Assembly (NCBI RefSeq): GCF_001020565.1
Contig: NZ_LDAS01000001.1
Span: 162,402-226,401 of the forward strand
Source of the DNA: Maribacter thermophilus
GTDB taxonomy: Bacteria; Bacteroidota; Bacteroidia; Flavobacteriales; Flavobacteriaceae
DNA length: 64,000 bases
Reading direction: 5' to 3'
The notes under the pieces were generated by a model. That model worked only from the letters and a program-made list of their open reading frames with translations. It ran no database searches and was not told the DNA's origin. A program made the position numbers and the translations under genes. Numbering within the stretch: the first letter of the stretch is position 1; every line of letters begins with the position of its first letter. This document shows, piece after piece, positions 37,239 through 56,730 of this stretch.

Positions 37239-37733
37239 CTAAGGATTCAAAATGGTTCTTAATTTTGTTTTTATACGGTTCATCTTTACCCTGGCATTTA
37301 CTTCTGTAATACCTAGGGTTTCTGCTATTTCCGTGTAATTTTTATCTTCTAGGTACATAAATACCAGTGCTTTGTCTATATCTCCCAACTGTCGCACGGC
37401 TTTGTACATTAGTTTTAATTGTTGCTCTTCCGTTTCATCGTATTCATCTGCCTTTATCTTAAAGATTACCGACTCATAATCTTGGGTGCTTATTCTTTTC
37501 TTGGATTTTCTGTATAGGGTGATGGCCGTATTTAGGGCAACCCTATACATCCAAGTGCTAAATTTGGCCTCTCCCCTGAACTTCGGATACGCTTTCCATA
37601 ACTGAATGGTTATTTCCTGAAACAGATCATTGTGCGACTCCCGGTCATTTGTATATAGAGAGCATATTTTATGGACAATGTTTTGATTGTCTTGTAGCTC
37701 TGTCACAAATTTATGTTCCAGTTCTTTTTTCAC
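37239..37733 (-). CDS. ECF RNA polymerase sigma factor
   Basis: This 164-residue sigma-70 ECF factor has region 2 (LFQEITIQLWKAYPKFRGEA, STWMYRVALNTAITLYRKS) and region 4 with a helix-turn-helix (ALVFMYLEDKNYTEIAETLG, TEVNARVKMNRIKTKL). The start is GTG at 37733; no in-frame ATG precedes the conserved N-terminus. Its partner membrane protein follows after 3 bases. No autoregulatory promoter could be picked out upstream. The regulon is not known. Confidence 0.92.
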   Translation of the reverse strand: MKKELEHKFVTELQDNQNIVHKICSLYTNDRESHNDLFQEITIQLWKAYPKFRGEAKFSTWMYRVALNTAITLYRKSKKRISTQDYESVIFKIKADEYDETEEQQLKLMYKAVRQLGDIDKALVFMYLEDKNYTEIAETLGITEVNARVKMNRIKTKLRTILNP

Positions 37734-51562: not shown

Positions 51563-52879
51563 ATGTCCAAAGCATTAGTATTAAAAGGGAGTAAAAAATT
51601 ATTGAACGCTTGGGCTTTCTACGATTGGGCCAATTCTGTTTACAGCCTGGTTATTTCTTCAGCCGTTTTTCCTATATTTTACGGAGCTTTGTTTCGTGTT
51701 GCCGAGATAGAAAAGGTAACCGTGTTCGGAGGTGAGATAGCACGGGCTCCACTGATAAGTTATACTACTTCCCTTGCTTTTATATTTATCGCCCTTATTA
51801 CCCCGTTGATTTCTGGGGTAGCTGATTACCTGGGGAACAAAAAGATTTTCATGAAGTTTTTTTGCTATCTGGGCGGTCTTTCCTGTATGGGTCTATATTG
51901 GTTCTCGTTAGAAAATATTTACATTGGTTTGTTGTGTTACTTTATGGGCCTAGTGGGTTTTTGGGTAAGTTTTGCCATTAATAATTCGTATTTGCCCGAT
52001 GTGGCCTTTCCCGAACAACAAGATGCAATCAGTGCAAAAGGTTTTTCGTTGGGCTATGTAGGAAGTGTTTTATTGCTCATCGTTAACCTTGCCATGATTA
52101 TGAACCCAAGTCTTTTTGGCATAATTACCGATGTCAATGGTATTGCCGAGGTCAAGGCCATGAAATACTCCTTTGTGTCGGTAGGTATTTGGTGGATCGT
52201 TTTTGCCCAATACAGTTTTTATTATTTGCCGGAAGGAAACAAAAGGGAGGGAAACCGCACCCATATAATTTTAAACGGTTTTAAAGAGTTGAGGTTGGTA
52301 TGGCATCAATTGGGTGATCAAATTCGTTTAAAACGTTATTTGGGAGCGTTTTTCGTATACAGCATGGCGGTACAGACCGTAATGTTGATAGCTACTTATT
52401 TTGGGGAAGAGGAAATTAATTGGGGAGCCGATTCTGAACGTACAACAGGCCTTATCGTTAGTATTTTGGTAATTCAGATAGTGGCGATTTTGGGAGCCTC
52501 CGTGACGGCATGGGCATCAAAAAAAATTGGTAACATTATAACCTTGGTGTTTGTAAACGGGCTGTGGGTCTCTATATGTATTTATGCTTATTTTGTAATT
52601 ACCCCTATTGATTTTTATATCGCGGCCGGGTGCGTTGGCCTTGTTATGGGAGGTATACAGGCATTGTCGCGATCCACGTATTCTAAGTTTATACCACCCA
52701 CCAAAGACACCGCCTCTTTTTTTAGTTTTTATGATGTGGCAGAAAAAATAGGCATTGTCATAGGTACATTTTTGTATGGGTTTATAGCACAGTATACGGG
52801 TAGTATGAGAAATGCCATCATCTTCTTGGGAATATTTTTCTTAGCGGGTATGCTTATGCTCTTTAGGGTTAAAAAATAA
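51563..52879 (+). CDS. MFS permease, UMF1/Atg22-like
   Basis: This 438-residue protein has about twelve membrane helices. The start LLNAWAFYDWANSVYSLVIS is characteristic of the UMF1 (Atg22-like) family; Atg22 is proposed to export amino acids from vacuoles. The central FSLGYVGSVLLLIVNLAMIM and the helix GGIQALSRSTYSKFIPPTKD also fit this family. The substrate is unknown. The start lies 58 bases after the M48 stop and beyond a terminator, so it probably has its own promoter. Confidence 0.9.
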   Translation: MSKALVLKGSKKLLNAWAFYDWANSVYSLVISSAVFPIFYGALFRVAEIEKVTVFGGEIARAPLISYTTSLAFIFIALITPLISGVADYLGNKKIFMKFFCYLGGLSCMGLYWFSLENIYIGLLCYFMGLVGFWVSFAINNSYLPDVAFPEQQDAISAKGFSLGYVGSVLLLIVNLAMIMNPSLFGIITDVNGIAEVKAMKYSFVSVGIWWIVFAQYSFYYLPEGNKREGNRTHIILNGFKELRLVWHQLGDQIRLKRYLGAFFVYSMAVQTVMLIATYFGEEEINWGADSERTTGLIVSILVIQIVAILGASVTAWASKKIGNIITLVFVNGLWVSICIYAYFVITPIDFYIAAGCVGLVMGGIQALSRSTYSKFIPPTKDTASFFSFYDVAEKIGIVIGTFLYGFIAQYTGSMRNAIIFLGIFFLAGMLMLFRVKK

Positions 52880-52880
52880 A

Positions 52881-52909
52881 AAGCCCCTTACGGATAAGAG
52901 GCTTTACAG
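52881..52909 (+). terminator. Terminator-like hairpin after the MFS gene
   Basis: A 10-bp stem with one mismatch, AAGCCCCTTA / TAAGAGGCTT (52881-52890, 52895-52904), starts 1 base after the MFS stop. The right side has only a short T run. It could serve the convergent minus-strand gene too. Confidence 0.55.
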
Positions 52910-52933
52910 TTGTTGATTGTTCGTTGTTTTGAT

Positions 52934-53659
52934 TTAACCTTTTGAAATATCTCCAGATCCCGAAGTTTTAGTGTCCAATTTTGAGGGATTGCCCCTGTAT
53001 GTAATGTCTCCAGAACCGGAAACCCTAGCTTTTAGTGTCTTATTGGCAGTTACCTTTATGTCCGCAGAACCCGATACGGTGGCATTTACATTGTCGGCCT
53101 CTAAATCAAATGCCTTTATATCTCCACTACCTGAGATAGTTGCTTCAAAATCTTCGGTGTTGCCGCTTAGCGTAATATCTCCAGAACCCGACATGCTTGC
53201 GCTTAAATATTGTGTGTCAACTTTTAACGTAATGTCCCCAGATCCGGACATGGCTGTTTTTAGGCTATTGCCTTTAATGGTGGTTTTACCTACAATATCT
53301 CCAGAACCGGATAGAGCGATAGCATCTACACTTTCTATCGGAACGGTAATACGTATGCCATTGTTCCAATTGGATGGTTTAAGATTGACACCCTTTTTGG
53401 TTTTAATGACCAACTTGTCGTCTTTTACCTCGGTGATAATGTATTCCAAAAGATTTGATTCCCCTTCTAGGGTTATATTACCTTCGTTGCCATCTACCAG
53501 GTCTACGTCAAAAAAACCCGAAACCGCTATGGCATCGTAATCTTCGGTGGATCTATCGATCGTAACTTTTTCCCCGTTTCCTTTTATCGATTTTCCCCAT
53601 TGTCCGGCACATGATACCGTAATTGTAAATACAAATAATAGTGTTGTGACTTTTTTCAT
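52934..53659 (-). CDS. Head-GIN (DUF2807) lipoprotein with SGSGDI repeats
   Basis: This 241-residue protein has a signal peptide ending in the lipobox TVSC. The body is a right-handed beta-helix-like DUF2807 (head GIN) domain in which SGSGDI or SGSADI recurs about seven times at roughly 20-residue spacing (GSGDIVGKTTI, SGSGDITLKVD, SGSGDITLSGN, SGSGDIKAF). It probably binds a surface partner or forms part of the envelope, but the ligand is unknown. It follows the DYG-repeat gene after 45 bases and is the last gene of the sigma cassette. Confidence 0.88.
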   Translation of the reverse strand: MKKVTTLLFVFTITVSCAGQWGKSIKGNGEKVTIDRSTEDYDAIAVSGFFDVDLVDGNEGNITLEGESNLLEYIITEVKDDKLVIKTKKGVNLKPSNWNNGIRITVPIESVDAIALSGSGDIVGKTTIKGNSLKTAMSGSGDITLKVDTQYLSASMSGSGDITLSGNTEDFEATISGSGDIKAFDLEADNVNATVSGSADIKVTANKTLKARVSGSGDITYRGNPSKLDTKTSGSGDISKG

Positions 53660-53704
53660 TTTATATTGATTTTATGCTGAAAGGCATTCAGCTTTTGATT
53701 GATA

Positions 53705-54799
53705 TTAATTTTTGGTGAAACTTATGCCTCCATAGTCGCTGTTTAGCGTAACCCTATTTCCACTTCCTGTGCTTCCATAGTATCCTTCGTAGCGTTTAGA
53801 GGAGGATTTTTCTATACTTATATTTATTTCAAAATCATCTTTTCCACTTACTCCCGCATAGCTGGTGGTAATATCAAAATCGAAATGATAATTAGGGTTG
53901 TATCCGATTTTGACGCCGGTATAATCGGTTCTGATAGAAACATTTCCTGCATCTTCTGCCAATTCGTTTATCCGTATAGATCCATAATCGGAAACAATGT
54001 CCACATTACCGTGTATTGTGCCCATTTTCACCGTAATGTAATCTCCGTTCCCTTTTACATTGTTTGCTTCTTCTACTTCCATTTTGCCATAGTCACTAGT
54101 GTACTCCAGGTTCCCCATTTTTCCCACTCGGGCATTGGTATAATCAGAGTTTATGATTAGGTTTCCTGCTTTTTCTATGGTAAAACCAGAATAGTCTGCC
54201 CTGATTTCTCCACTATTTATGTAAGCAATACTGGAATTGGAGGTATAATCGAAATTTAATTGATTGTTACGGCCTCTTAGTTCGCCAATTTCTAATCTGC
54301 CATAATCGCAACTTATTTTTGCGTGCCCATCTATGCGGTCCAAGATAATGTTGCCATAGTCATTGTCTAGATTTATACTGTTCTTAACGGGTAGTTTAAT
54401 GGTGTAGTTGATCTGCATGTTTACATTATTGTTGTTGCCCCAGTTCCAGCCCCAGCCACTTTTTCTGTTGTTGAAGATGGTTTCGGCGGAAACCATGCTT
54501 TTGCTGGCTTCGAACGATACTGAAATATCGTCTAGTTTTTGTTGTACCTTTTCTTCGTTGTTGCCATTGGTCTTTATATGTACCTCTATCATTACTCTAT
54601 TTTCGTTCCATGAGGTAATGGTAAGATTCCCATAATTGTTGTTTACTTTTAAAAGGGCATCCGAATTTACATCAAACTCTTTTTTGATCGTTTTTTCTTT
54701 GGTGTACTTGCCGCGAAGCTTGCCGTCGTGGGCCAAGATCAATCCCGGACTTAGTAATAGGATCAGTAGGCTATATTTAAATAGTAAAGTTTTCATCAT
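53705..54799 (-). CDS. Exported beta-repeat protein with DYG motifs (DUF4097-like)
   Basis: This 364-residue protein has a Sec signal peptide (MKTLLFKYSLLILLLSPGLI...). Its body repeats short strand-turn units around DY(G/S/T), for example NNNYGNLTITSWNENRVMI, DNDYGNIILDRIDGH, SCDYGRLEIGEL, SDYTNARVGKM and SDYGKMEVEEA. This is the pattern of DUF4097-like beta-helical proteins that fold as a stack. It overlaps the upstream anti-sigma-like gene by 23 bases. It probably sits on the outer surface and may be the regulated output of the sigma factor; that link is inferred from gene order. Confidence 0.82.
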   Translation of the reverse strand: MMKTLLFKYSLLILLLSPGLILAHDGKLRGKYTKEKTIKKEFDVNSDALLKVNNNYGNLTITSWNENRVMIEVHIKTNGNNEEKVQQKLDDISVSFEASKSMVSAETIFNNRKSGWGWNWGNNNNVNMQINYTIKLPVKNSINLDNDYGNIILDRIDGHAKISCDYGRLEIGELRGRNNQLNFDYTSNSSIAYINSGEIRADYSGFTIEKAGNLIINSDYTNARVGKMGNLEYTSDYGKMEVEEANNVKGNGDYITVKMGTIHGNVDIVSDYGSIRINELAEDAGNVSIRTDYTGVKIGYNPNYHFDFDITTSYAGVSGKDDFEINISIEKSSSKRYEGYYGSTGSGNRVTLNSDYGGISFTKN

Positions 54800-55340
54800 T
54801 ATAATTCTTTAGATTCTTAATTGTTTCGATTTGACCCAAAACATCATTTAATAAATCAATTCTTGTTTGAAAGTTGGTGATCATTGCACTTAAGATCAAT
54901 TTACTGTTACCACCATTTATCAGTTCTTTTTCTAAATTTTGATAGTCTGTCTCCAATGTTTTCAACTGTACCATGGTATCGGAAATGATTTTTTTTGTTT
55001 CCGGGGTCTCTTCGGCTTCCAGTTCCTTAACCTGTTCTTCTATTAAGCTTGCAAAATAGAATTGACTTTGGGCAACTTCGGGCGAAATCTGCGCTACTTG
55101 GTTTTCAAGGCTCGTATTTTTGTTCAGTTGGCCATATGCCAAACCAAGAAGTATGGTTATCGAAGCTGCAATGGACAATGGTTTCCAAAACCAAGATTTT
55201 TTCTTTGTTACGGTATTGGCCATTTCTCCTGTGCCGTTCAATTTTTCTATAAATCGCATTTGATGACCTTCGGCAGGTTCTTCCGTATCAAAGGCACCTT
55301 GCATGTTTTTAAATAGTTCTTCTAAATTGTCCTTTTCCAT
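54777..55340 (-). CDS. Anti-sigma-factor-like single-pass membrane protein
   Basis: This 187-residue protein has a cytoplasmic N-terminal part (MEKDNLEELFKNMQGAFDTE, EGHQMRFIEKLN), one membrane helix (FWKPLSIAASITILLGLAYG) and an extracytoplasmic helical tail (EQVKELEAEETPETKKIISD, YQNLEKELINGG). It directly follows the ECF sigma gene: its ATG shares one base with the sigma stop (TGATG). The layout is that of a membrane anti-sigma factor, but no canonical zinc motif is present. Confidence 0.82.
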   Translation of the reverse strand: MEKDNLEELFKNMQGAFDTEEPAEGHQMRFIEKLNGTGEMANTVTKKKSWFWKPLSIAASITILLGLAYGQLNKNTSLENQVAQISPEVAQSQFYFASLIEEQVKELEAEETPETKKIISDTMVQLKTLETDYQNLEKELINGGNSKLILSAMITNFQTRIDLLNDVLGQIETIKNLKNYNDENFTI

Positions 55341-55894
55341 CAATTAGCTGTTAACAATTGTTTTCTTAAACTTTCTTTTGCCCTAGAGATCGTAGTTCTG
55401 CAATTGGCATAACTCATATTCATTATAGCACATATTTCTTCATAGTCGTATCCTTCTATTAAATGTAAGGTCAAAGAAATTCTGTAATTATCTTTTAAGC
55501 GTTTCATGGTTTCCATCACTTTTTGAGCCTTTTGTTCCGTAAACACATGATCCGAAGTAATTTCATCATTATCTTCGACCTTGTACATTATATCATTTAG
55601 GGCAACTTCGTTTTTTTTCTGTTGCTTTTTGTAATGATAAATACTGTTGTTTATTACAATTCGCTTAAGCCAGGCGCCAAAAGTTACTTCACCTTTGAAC
55701 GTATGCAGTTTCGTAAACGCGTTTAAAAACGATTCTTGCATAATGTCTTCGGCTTCCGCACTATCTTTTACAATACGCAAAGCCGTGTTGTACATAGCTT
55801 TGTAGTACCTATTGTAAACCTCTAGTTGCGCACTTTGCTTACCTTCCATGCACGATTGCAATAATGCATCAATATGTACTTTTCTTTGGCTCAA
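55340..55894 (-). CDS. ECF RNA polymerase sigma factor heading the beta-repeat cassette
   Basis: This 184-residue ECF sigma factor has region 2 (YYKAMYNTALRIVKDSAEAE, IMQESFLNAFTKL) and region 4 (IEGYDYEEICAIMNMSYANC, TISRAKESLRKQL). The start is TTG at 55894: the residues from MSQRKVHIDALL onward match this sigma group, and a stop lies six codons upstream. The nearest internal ATG (55849) would cut into the conserved N-terminus. It starts a four-gene unit with coupling to the anti-sigma gene. I could not pick out the promoter. Confidence 0.92.
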   Translation of the reverse strand: MSQRKVHIDALLQSCMEGKQSAQLEVYNRYYKAMYNTALRIVKDSAEAEDIMQESFLNAFTKLHTFKGEVTFGAWLKRIVINNSIYHYKKQQKKNEVALNDIMYKVEDNDEITSDHVFTEQKAQKVMETMKRLKDNYRISLTLHLIEGYDYEEICAIMNMSYANCRTTISRAKESLRKQLLTAN

Positions 55895-56018
55895 AAAAGT
55901 GATTGGTTTGTCTTATAGATGATTCAATTTACGCTTTGTTACAGTTTGGGAGAAAAGATTTTATAAATTCAGCTAATAATTACACGGAAATCAATCTGAA
56001 CAGTAAAACAAAAGGGAG

Positions 56019-56591
56019 GTGACGGAAAAAGAAAAAATGTTAAGAGGTGAGTATTACAACTCTAGGGATACGGAGTTGTTGGCAATGTATCATAATGCCA
56101 GAAGGTTGTTAAAGGAGTACAATAATCTAGATTCTGATCAGGGCGAAGAAAGAGAAAGAATACTGTCGGATCTTTTTGGTAAGAAAGGTTCTGGTGTATG
56201 GGTGGAAATTCCTTTTTTCTGTGATTATGGTACAAATATCCATATAGGGGAAAACACCTTTGTGAATACCAATTGTATGTTTTTGGACAATAATAGAATA
56301 ACTATTGGCAAAAATGGACTTATTGCGCCTTATGTACAGATATATACGGCATCGCATCCATTAAAGGCATCAGAAAGAATAGTGGAAAAGGACGGTGGGT
56401 CGGCTTATTTGACCTCTAGCAAACCTGTTGTTATAGGTGATAATGTTTGGATCGGTGGCAATGCGATTATTTGTCCGGGTGTTACCATAGGCGATAATGT
56501 TACCATAGGGTCAGGTAGTGTGGTGGTCAAAGATCTGCCGGACAATGTGCTCGCCATGGGAAACCCATGTAAAGTGGTTCGTAATATATAA
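56019..56591 (+). CDS. Sugar O-acetyltransferase, maltose acetyltransferase type
   Basis: This 190-residue left-handed beta-helix enzyme transfers acetyl from acetyl-CoA to a sugar. The N-terminal substrate region TEKEKMLRGEYYNSRD and the hexapeptide repeats (FCDYGTNIHIGENTFVNTNC, VIGDNVWIGGNAIICPGVTI) match the Maa/LacA/NodL group, with the active His in YTASHPLK. The start is GTG at 56019, because a stop lies 15 bases upstream and the family begins TEKEKM; the next ATG is at 56037. The GTG is the end of a purine-rich GGGAGG stretch, so the start and SD-like sequence overlap. Confidence 0.9.
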   Translation: MTEKEKMLRGEYYNSRDTELLAMYHNARRLLKEYNNLDSDQGEERERILSDLFGKKGSGVWVEIPFFCDYGTNIHIGENTFVNTNCMFLDNNRITIGKNGLIAPYVQIYTASHPLKASERIVEKDGGSAYLTSSKPVVIGDNVWIGGNAIICPGVTIGDNVTIGSGSVVVKDLPDNVLAMGNPCKVVRNI

Positions 56592-56730
56592 AGGTAATAG
56601 AGTTGTGTTGTTATAGCAAAGCCAAGTAGTTTGTATGAAAGAAAGAGAAAAATAACTATTTAAGGCCGTTTTTAATGAATGGCACAAGAATTGAAATAAT
56701 CATGTAGAGGTAAGGTGATAAATCTTGCTT

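Follow-up and report, generated by a model that had tools for sequence, protein, structure and literature searches.

Results

Layout of the cassette

The window analysed here, a 64,000-nucleotide stretch of contig NZ_LDAS01000001.1 from the 4.05 Mb genome of Maribacter thermophilus, contains a cassette of four genes which all lie on the minus strand and run from position 55894 down to 52934 (open reading frame (ORF) coordinates). The cassette encodes an extracytoplasmic function (ECF) sigma factor, a putative anti-sigma factor and two proteins which are probably exported; we refer to the genes as SIG, ANTI, DYG and GIN, in their order along this strand. The following features were found, with positions counted from the first base of the window:

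55915..55943, minus strand: predicted ECF-type promoter of SIG, with TGTAACA on the -35 side (55937-55943), 16 bases and ATCT on the -10 side
55340..55894, minus strand: SIG, ECF sigma factor, 184 amino acids (aa), with Sigma70_r2, Sigma70_r4_2 and TIGR02937 above cut-off
54777..55343, minus strand: ANTI, putative anti-sigma factor, 188 aa if it starts at a TTG, 187 aa if at the ATG within TGATG
54777..54799, minus strand: overlap of the 3' end of ANTI with the 5' end of DYG, 23 bases in ORF coordinates
53705..54799, minus strand: DYG, beta-helix protein with a predicted toastrack fold and a signal-like N-terminus, 364 aa; the window protein has no lipobox
52934..53659, minus strand: GIN, DUF2807 protein (PF10988; head GIN / toastrack) with a signal-like N-terminus, possible lipoprotein, 241 aa
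52880..52905, minus strand: intrinsic-terminator-like hairpin after GIN, with 11 pairs and a T-run (fold z-score -3.94)

These coordinates confirm an earlier description of the window made from its letters alone (the sequence-only reading) as to the place of the four genes, the TGATG which couples SIG to ANTI and the 23-base overlap of ANTI and DYG. DYG and GIN are separated by 45 bases. SIG is a plain ECF sigma factor: it is a short protein in which regions 2 (Sigma70_r2, 3.6e-15, 56 bits, cut-off 24) and 4 (Sigma70_r4_2, 2.8e-12, 46.5 bits, cut-off 25.7) both exceed their curated cut-offs, as does the NCBIfam sigma70-ECF model TIGR02937 (83.7 bits, cut-off 42.9). GIN matches PF10988 (DUF2807) at 1.2e-55 (188.5 bits, cut-off 24.2). 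No Pfam or NCBIfam family was found above cut-off in the window ANTI or the window DYG, and both were probably left unnamed by automatic annotation for this reason.

Gene order in close relatives

ANTI was matched in 41 of 60 genomes including its own: all 36 of the same genus, one further genome in the family and 4 of 23 further ones in the order. The order SIG-ANTI-DYG-GIN was found at 18 ortholog loci, bar one which is cut before GIN by the end of its contig (L046) and one in which GIN is in two pieces (L045, where GIN, LON and AGLU fall into several ORFs and the locus looks frameshifted). We then compared named relatives, which are the best 80 of 165 loci (from Maribacter, Zobellia, Eudoraea, Muriicola, Flagellimonas and others). 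The four genes were found in the same order in 79 of these 80, the match to GIN being partial in two (L084, at a contig end, and L086); in the remaining locus (L107) the contig starts within ANTI, and SIG is cut off. The arrangement is beyond chance. In 76 of the 80 there is an overlap between ANTI and DYG.

The copy number of GIN varies among relatives and that of SIG-ANTI-DYG does not. A second GIN-like gene stands between DYG and GIN in L097, L110, L125 and L135, and an unrelated gene stands there in L136. Some relatives carry three paralogous cassettes, for example G006. In the third paralogous cassette, DYG and GIN are separated by a further gene (L066:5170-5871) which encodes 233 aa and has no Pfam match, and ORFs of 232 and 222 aa occupy the same place in L068 and L071.

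The SIG-ANTI-DYG core across Bacteroidota

We built a profile from 24 ANTI sequences and searched 395 Bacteroidota genomes with it; 67 contained matches, and 107 places were listed. Of these, 77 extend to profile position 166 or beyond, and thus into the extracytoplasmic part of the protein, and 30 stop at position 136 or before. From the 77 we picked 40 loci, non-randomly, for their diversity. SIG stood directly upstream of ANTI in all 40 and DYG directly downstream in 37; at L284, L286 and L289 an FtsE-like ATPase gene, convergent with ANTI and directly adjoining it, lies where DYG would be. Three loci (L255, L273 and L291) were found by six-frame search only, so promoters were counted in 37 diverse loci and gaps measured in 34, and in 31 of these 34 ANTI runs into DYG. 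Of the 20 diverse loci from the host family, 17 have a GIN-like gene behind DYG (in L265 and L267 past one gene on the opposite strand), against none of the 20 others. The order-level locus L060 has two GIN-like genes.

The linkage was also found in the reverse direction: when the same 395 genomes were searched for DYG, an ANTI match stood no more than 431 bases away at 59 of the 61 best places, the exceptions being in G219 and G156. Each of the three paralogous copies formed one clade in the trees of SIG, ANTI and DYG (38, 36 and 38 sequences respectively), with support of at least 0.99. From these paralogue clades and the linkage of the genes, SIG-ANTI-DYG travels, and was duplicated, as a unit. 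A separate arrangement is found at L300:945-3917, where an ECF sigma gene and a gene for a HEAT-repeat anti-sigma-like protein are followed by two genes which match the DYG profile, one of them also DUF4097; this is perhaps an independent joining of a sigma factor and a toastrack.

Predicted promoter and terminator, and possible further targets

TGTAACA lies 46-49 nucleotides upstream of the TTG start of SIG in all 79 named relatives which have SIG. The pattern TGTAACA-N16-NTCN fits all 79 and the exact ATCT is present in 71, compared to a mean of 0.01 and a maximum of 1 for the exact form in Markov-shuffled controls. Most paralogous and distant copies have GCAAC or GTAAC with CGTC or TGTC at similar spacing. 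Our first promoter pattern fits 21 of the 37 diverse loci (control mean 0.24, maximum 3; reverse strand 0), and 30 fit a pattern which we relaxed once the misses were known (control mean 0.38, maximum 3; reverse strand 0). Judged by its letters, the stretch before SIG has the shape of a classic ECF promoter. As such a promoter stands before SIG, autoregulation is the natural prediction, and it does not depend on whether the regulon is small.

At the other end of the cassette, a scan of the region for terminators gave 5 sites (3.5 expected), the hairpin after GIN among them, and no minus-strand terminator-like site between the four genes. Together with the conserved promoter, this supports the view of the sequence-only reading that the genes form one unit, probably under the control of the sigma factor. 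No RNA family was found at 52000-56600 up to an E value of 0.1.

The strict promoter pattern has one match in the host genome, which is this operon (G000:C1:218316-218344); the reversed pattern used as a control also has one. A search of the same genome with RTCT on the -10 side and one mismatch allowed gave 39 matches against 27 in the control: 29 were inspected, one is the promoter itself and nine are without a locus. In nine of those inspected (L193, L194, L200, L202, L210, L217, L218, L219 and L221) an ORF of at least 100 aa starts at most 120 bases downstream. One of the nine ORFs encodes another ECF sigma factor, and, as judged on their first 60 residues, nothing among the nine clearly belonged to the SIG-ANTI-DYG-GIN system. 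At L193 and L194 the ECF-type promoter matches (TGTAACAT...GTCTTT) precede genes for small exported proteins (111 and 130 aa), and G006 and G011 have a site which resembles the one at L193.

Architecture of ANTI and its putative anti-sigma module

By hydropathy and an AlphaFold2 (AF2) model, ANTI is predicted to consist of a cytosolic part of about 50 aa (up to residue ~52), a hydrophobic segment at ~50-74 and an extracytoplasmic domain at 88-184. In the model the N-terminal part forms low-confidence helices at 4-15 and 27-37, and the extracytoplasmic part a three-helix bundle with a predicted local distance difference test (pLDDT) score of about 71-87. The extracytoplasmic part is also the better conserved, with a mean majority-residue frequency of 0.80 vs 0.62 for the cytosolic part (54 sequences). 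Foldseek found nothing similar to this domain at E ≤ 0.001 and VIA found middling helical bundles, the best of which (Z = 10.4) was a designed protein; CnrX and other metal-sensor folds were absent from the VIA matches listed, which excludes none of them. A PDZ-like reading of the C-terminus (NFTI, GYTL) was set aside: the bases of the conserved end also belong to the start of DYG, and a different C-terminus is found in L048 and L051, in which the two genes are free of overlap.

Searches with family models gave weak matches among the relatives of ANTI. DUF3379 was matched by 7 of 24 (best 0.0036), which we did not use as support, and the NCBIfam 'anti-sigma factor' model by 1 of 24 family members (E = 0.0021). 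Dma1, by its authors' account, restrains its ECF21 sigma factor in Bacteroides thetaiotaomicron (PMC13088901). Using hhalign, the ANTI family was aligned with eight Dma-like proteins of the host family (two of them checked for the barrel domain; Dma1 and Dma2 lie outside this set) with a probability of 97.2% and an E value of 4.7e-11, over the N-terminal 77 columns only.

All 30 of the places matched by the N-terminal part of ANTI alone sit directly behind an ECF sigma frame, at distances of -99 to +99 bases between open frames. Their own frames span about 200 to 940 residues, and nine of them, when searched with Pfam, contained HEAT repeats, an outer-membrane barrel, VWA domains, a TonB plug, RskA_C (in L316) or nothing telling. 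At L326:1489-3813, behind an ECF sigma gene, a single open frame has an anti-sigma-like N-terminus and a transmembrane (TM) segment together with a TonB plug, VWA and a tail for type IX secretion, which is an odd combination for a membrane-anchored regulator. At L320:523-3339 an anti-sigma-like N-terminus is joined to CarboxypepD_reg, VWA and YfbK_C in a frame of 939 aa.

We made a second profile from the N-terminal module (alignment A6), which omits L310, L316, L318, L321, L325 and L327 of the 30, as these were not clearly of the same kind, and also L301, L303, L307, L314, L315, L319 and L320. In the host genome this profile has 15 matches, and Sigma70_r4_2 has 26 above cut-off. The four strong A6 matches all adjoin a Sigma70_r4_2 match; three of them are rows of A6 and only L330 is independent. 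Of the 11 weak matches, six adjoin a Sigma70_r4_2 match on the same strand. L330 (G000:C1 near 2921057) lies behind an ECF sigma gene and encodes 490 aa with the N-terminal module, a TM segment, a linker and OMP_b-brl_2, which by its predicted domains is the layout of a Dma. The window itself contains a further Sigma70_r4_2 match at 37260-37409 (minus strand), inside the ORF 37239-37733.

Given the Dma-like N-terminus and the position of the module behind ECF sigma genes, the most likely identity of ANTI is a Dma-related anti-sigma factor whose sensor end is of another kind. The sequence-only reading had called it anti-sigma-like; the N-terminal module speaks for this description, while no family model does so above cut-off.

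Folds and predicted export of DYG and GIN

The AF2 model of DYG has a pLDDT of 88.8. Its best matches by VIA were 3lyc (Z = 17.6, root-mean-square deviation 2.7, 220 aligned residues), 3jx8 (Z = 16.8) and 4opw (Z = 16.7), with other beta-helices at 14.1 or below. Foldseek placed the same family first (4qrk, E = 1.4e-09), at low template modelling (TM) scores of 0.14-0.36 of the query over ranks 1-12. As 3jx8, 3lyc and 4opw are also the nearest solved sequence relatives of GIN, the beta-helical character which had been read from the letters of both proteins is supported. The Pfam toastrack model has no match above cut-off on the window DYG; within the DYG family, DUF4097 was matched in 4 of 31 members (best 1e-05) and Toast-rack_PspC-Cterm in 1 of 16, at 0.034. 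We rejected the idea that DYG and GIN are relatives in sequence (hhalign probabilities of 1.4% and 0.7%, BLASTP E = 0.33), their likeness being one of fold only. From the match in fold and the lack of a sequence link to GIN, DYG is modelled as an enlarged and divergent toastrack.

A hydrophobic, signal-like start was seen by eye in the 31 aligned DYG members, and a Cys falls within residues 11-30 of DYG in 18 of 80 near relatives. The N-termini of GIN were compared across 80 relatives: a QW motif with a Cys just in front of it is present in 64, 14 have no such Cys and 2 are without the motif. For 60 of the 64, a site which signal peptidase I could also cut follows the Cys at a distance of 3 residues. 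GIN had been called a lipoprotein; this feature is not conserved, and the status is uncertain. Both proteins are predicted from their N-termini to be exported. A reading of DYG and GIN as surface proteins or adhesins was dropped, as neither Pfam nor the survey of N-termini gave a feature in its support.

Discussion

Comparison with known systems

The rpoE-rseA-rseB operon of Proteobacteria is an envelope stress system which consists of a sigma factor, an anti-sigma factor with one TM segment and a periplasmic partner, and in which the anti-sigma factor undergoes DegS/RseP-type proteolysis. The cassette resembles it in the order of sigma factor, one-TM anti-sigma factor and exported beta-rich protein, and in its predicted autoregulation. 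It differs in the families of its parts: DYG has a toastrack fold, and the window ANTI matches no Pfam or NCBIfam family above cut-off. No RseB fold was among the VIA matches listed for DYG, at the top of which were toastrack chains.

The Dma systems share with the cassette a gene pair in which the anti-sigma gene comes after that of an ECF sigma factor, a homologous N-terminal module with a TM segment and the own operon as predicted target. Deletion of dma2 in B. thetaiotaomicron is reported to leave the genes of its own operon among the most induced and to change polysaccharide utilization loci too (PMC13088901). ANTI has a compact, conserved three-helix domain where a Dma has a disordered tether and an outer-membrane beta-barrel, and the cassette also has a separate exported toastrack protein. 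As its predicted helices reach residue 184 of 188 and no barrel domain was found, we regard ANTI as a relative of the Dma proteins and not as one of them.

A paper which unites DUF4097, DUF2154 and DUF2807 as toastrack links this fold to the PSP/Lia envelope stress systems, argues that it is intracellular and also refers to contexts in which a sigma factor is operonically linked (PMC11237479). The cassette shares with those systems the fold of DYG, the DUF2807 of GIN and the link to envelope stress regulators. However, Pfam found no PspA, PspC, LiaI or LiaF-TM in the cassette or in three flanking genes that were also searched, and the signal-like N-termini of DYG and GIN are unlike the intracellular toastrack for which that paper argues.

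The class II anti-sigma factor CnrY is described as two helices which wrap its sigma factor (PMC7406223). ANTI may be likened by this description to CnrY of the CnrH-CnrY pair, as it too has a short cytosolic segment with two helices predicted at low confidence; unlike CnrY, it bears an extracytoplasmic helical domain of its own. The same survey reports that, of the ECF sigma factors of Bacteroidetes, only 6% have a class I anti-sigma domain as a neighbour, and suggests broken linkage or other anti-sigma classes as the cause (PMC7406223). The short N-terminus of ANTI fits that gap, without proving it. A transcriptome study of Flavobacterium psychrophilum gives an ECF-type promoter motif which includes one sigma/anti-sigma pair, and this pair may or may not be that of the cassette (PMC9723704). 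No description of the cassette was among the matches listed in the CC0, CC BY and CC BY-SA papers of PubMed Central.

Proposed mechanism

We propose that the cassette is a self-contained, autoregulated ECF sigma/anti-sigma signalling operon which watches the periplasm and is laid out like rpoE-rseA-rseB, and we put the probability of this at roughly 60%. The gene linkage and the Dma-like N-terminus of ANTI agree with the earlier description of a compact signalling system. ANTI would hold SIG at the inner membrane by means of its short N-terminal segment, and its conserved extracytoplasmic three-helix domain would be the sensor, in contact with DYG or another periplasmic ligand. Envelope disturbance would inactivate ANTI, most likely through membrane proteolysis, and the freed SIG would transcribe its own operon and so raise DYG and GIN, which may bind or scaffold envelope material and help to reset the switch.

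Several results weigh against this proposal. The N-terminus of ANTI, on which restraint of SIG would depend, is weak in the AF2 model (pLDDT ~45-50, with a mean of 63 for the protein). Seven of the 37 diverse loci fail even the loosened promoter pattern. One-mismatch matches to the promoter number 699 vs 427 in the control across 23 genomes of the same genus including the host, which leaves room for more targets (198 vs 153 in 14 genomes of other genera); the excess within the genus may reflect other targets of SIG or other ECF sigma factors. SIG-ANTI occurs without DYG in L284, L286 and L289, all from one family, so DYG is not strictly needed. Finally, in a mirror-tree comparison of 26 loci the partial correlation of ANTI with DYG (r = 0.53) was below that of the flanking control AGLU with ANTI (0.64) and with DYG (0.66). 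DYG may talk back to ANTI: the linkage favours this, and the loci without DYG argue against its being necessary.

Alternative readings

The alternative which survives best, and which we consider possible if clearly less probable than the proposal above, is that DYG and GIN are output only and give no feedback, with ANTI sensing alone or with an unlinked partner and the toastracks having a protective or scaffolding role. The three loci without DYG favour this, as does the joining of the N-terminal module of ANTI elsewhere to quite different extracytoplasmic domains; the mirror-tree comparison did not single out the pair of ANTI and DYG, and the genes most induced in the dma2 mutant include those of its own operon (PMC13088901). 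However, DYG is nearly always directly behind ANTI and mostly overlaps it, in both the named and the diverse loci, while GIN and the other neighbours vary, and the triplets duplicate as units.

The sequence-only reading had suggested that the sigma factor controls structures of the cell surface, which would make DYG and GIN adhesin-like surface proteins. Both have beta-helical folds, the Pfam name of DUF2807 is 'putative auto-transporter adhesin' and the regulon may be wider than this operon. We nevertheless find this reading improbable and did not retain it, since DYG and GIN have signal-like N-termini, Pfam found neither a type IX tail nor a beta-barrel on the two proteins, the lipobox Cys is absent or doubtful in relatives of GIN and the strict promoter pattern is matched once in the host genome, at this operon. 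Least credible of all is that ANTI is a positive partner or an unrelated, merely co-transcribed membrane protein, as its lack of a family model above cut-off and its poorly modelled N-terminus might allow, given that its N-terminal module is common to Dma-like proteins and is located behind ECF sigma genes, that one family member weakly matches the NCBIfam anti-sigma model and that Dma1, by its authors' account, restrains its sigma factor (PMC13088901).

Implications

More widely, and tentatively, a family of short CnrY-like anti-sigma domains, that of the N-terminus of Dma, may serve in Bacteroidota as a modular plug on many different extracytoplasmic sensors. The cassette would be the most compact form, in which a dedicated periplasmic toastrack, a fold usually called an adhesin, would read out a three-helix sensor and so have an RseB-like role. 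If true, this would help to explain the scarcity of class I anti-sigma neighbours for the ECF sigma factors of Bacteroidota. In many families, the profile built from 24 ANTI sequences picks up an anti-sigma-like module next to an ECF sigma gene and behind it, and this module gives a handle on two questions: how these sigma factors are restrained, and what the exported toastrack proteins do. The cassette is thus a good target for studying how such bacteria detect disturbances of the envelope.

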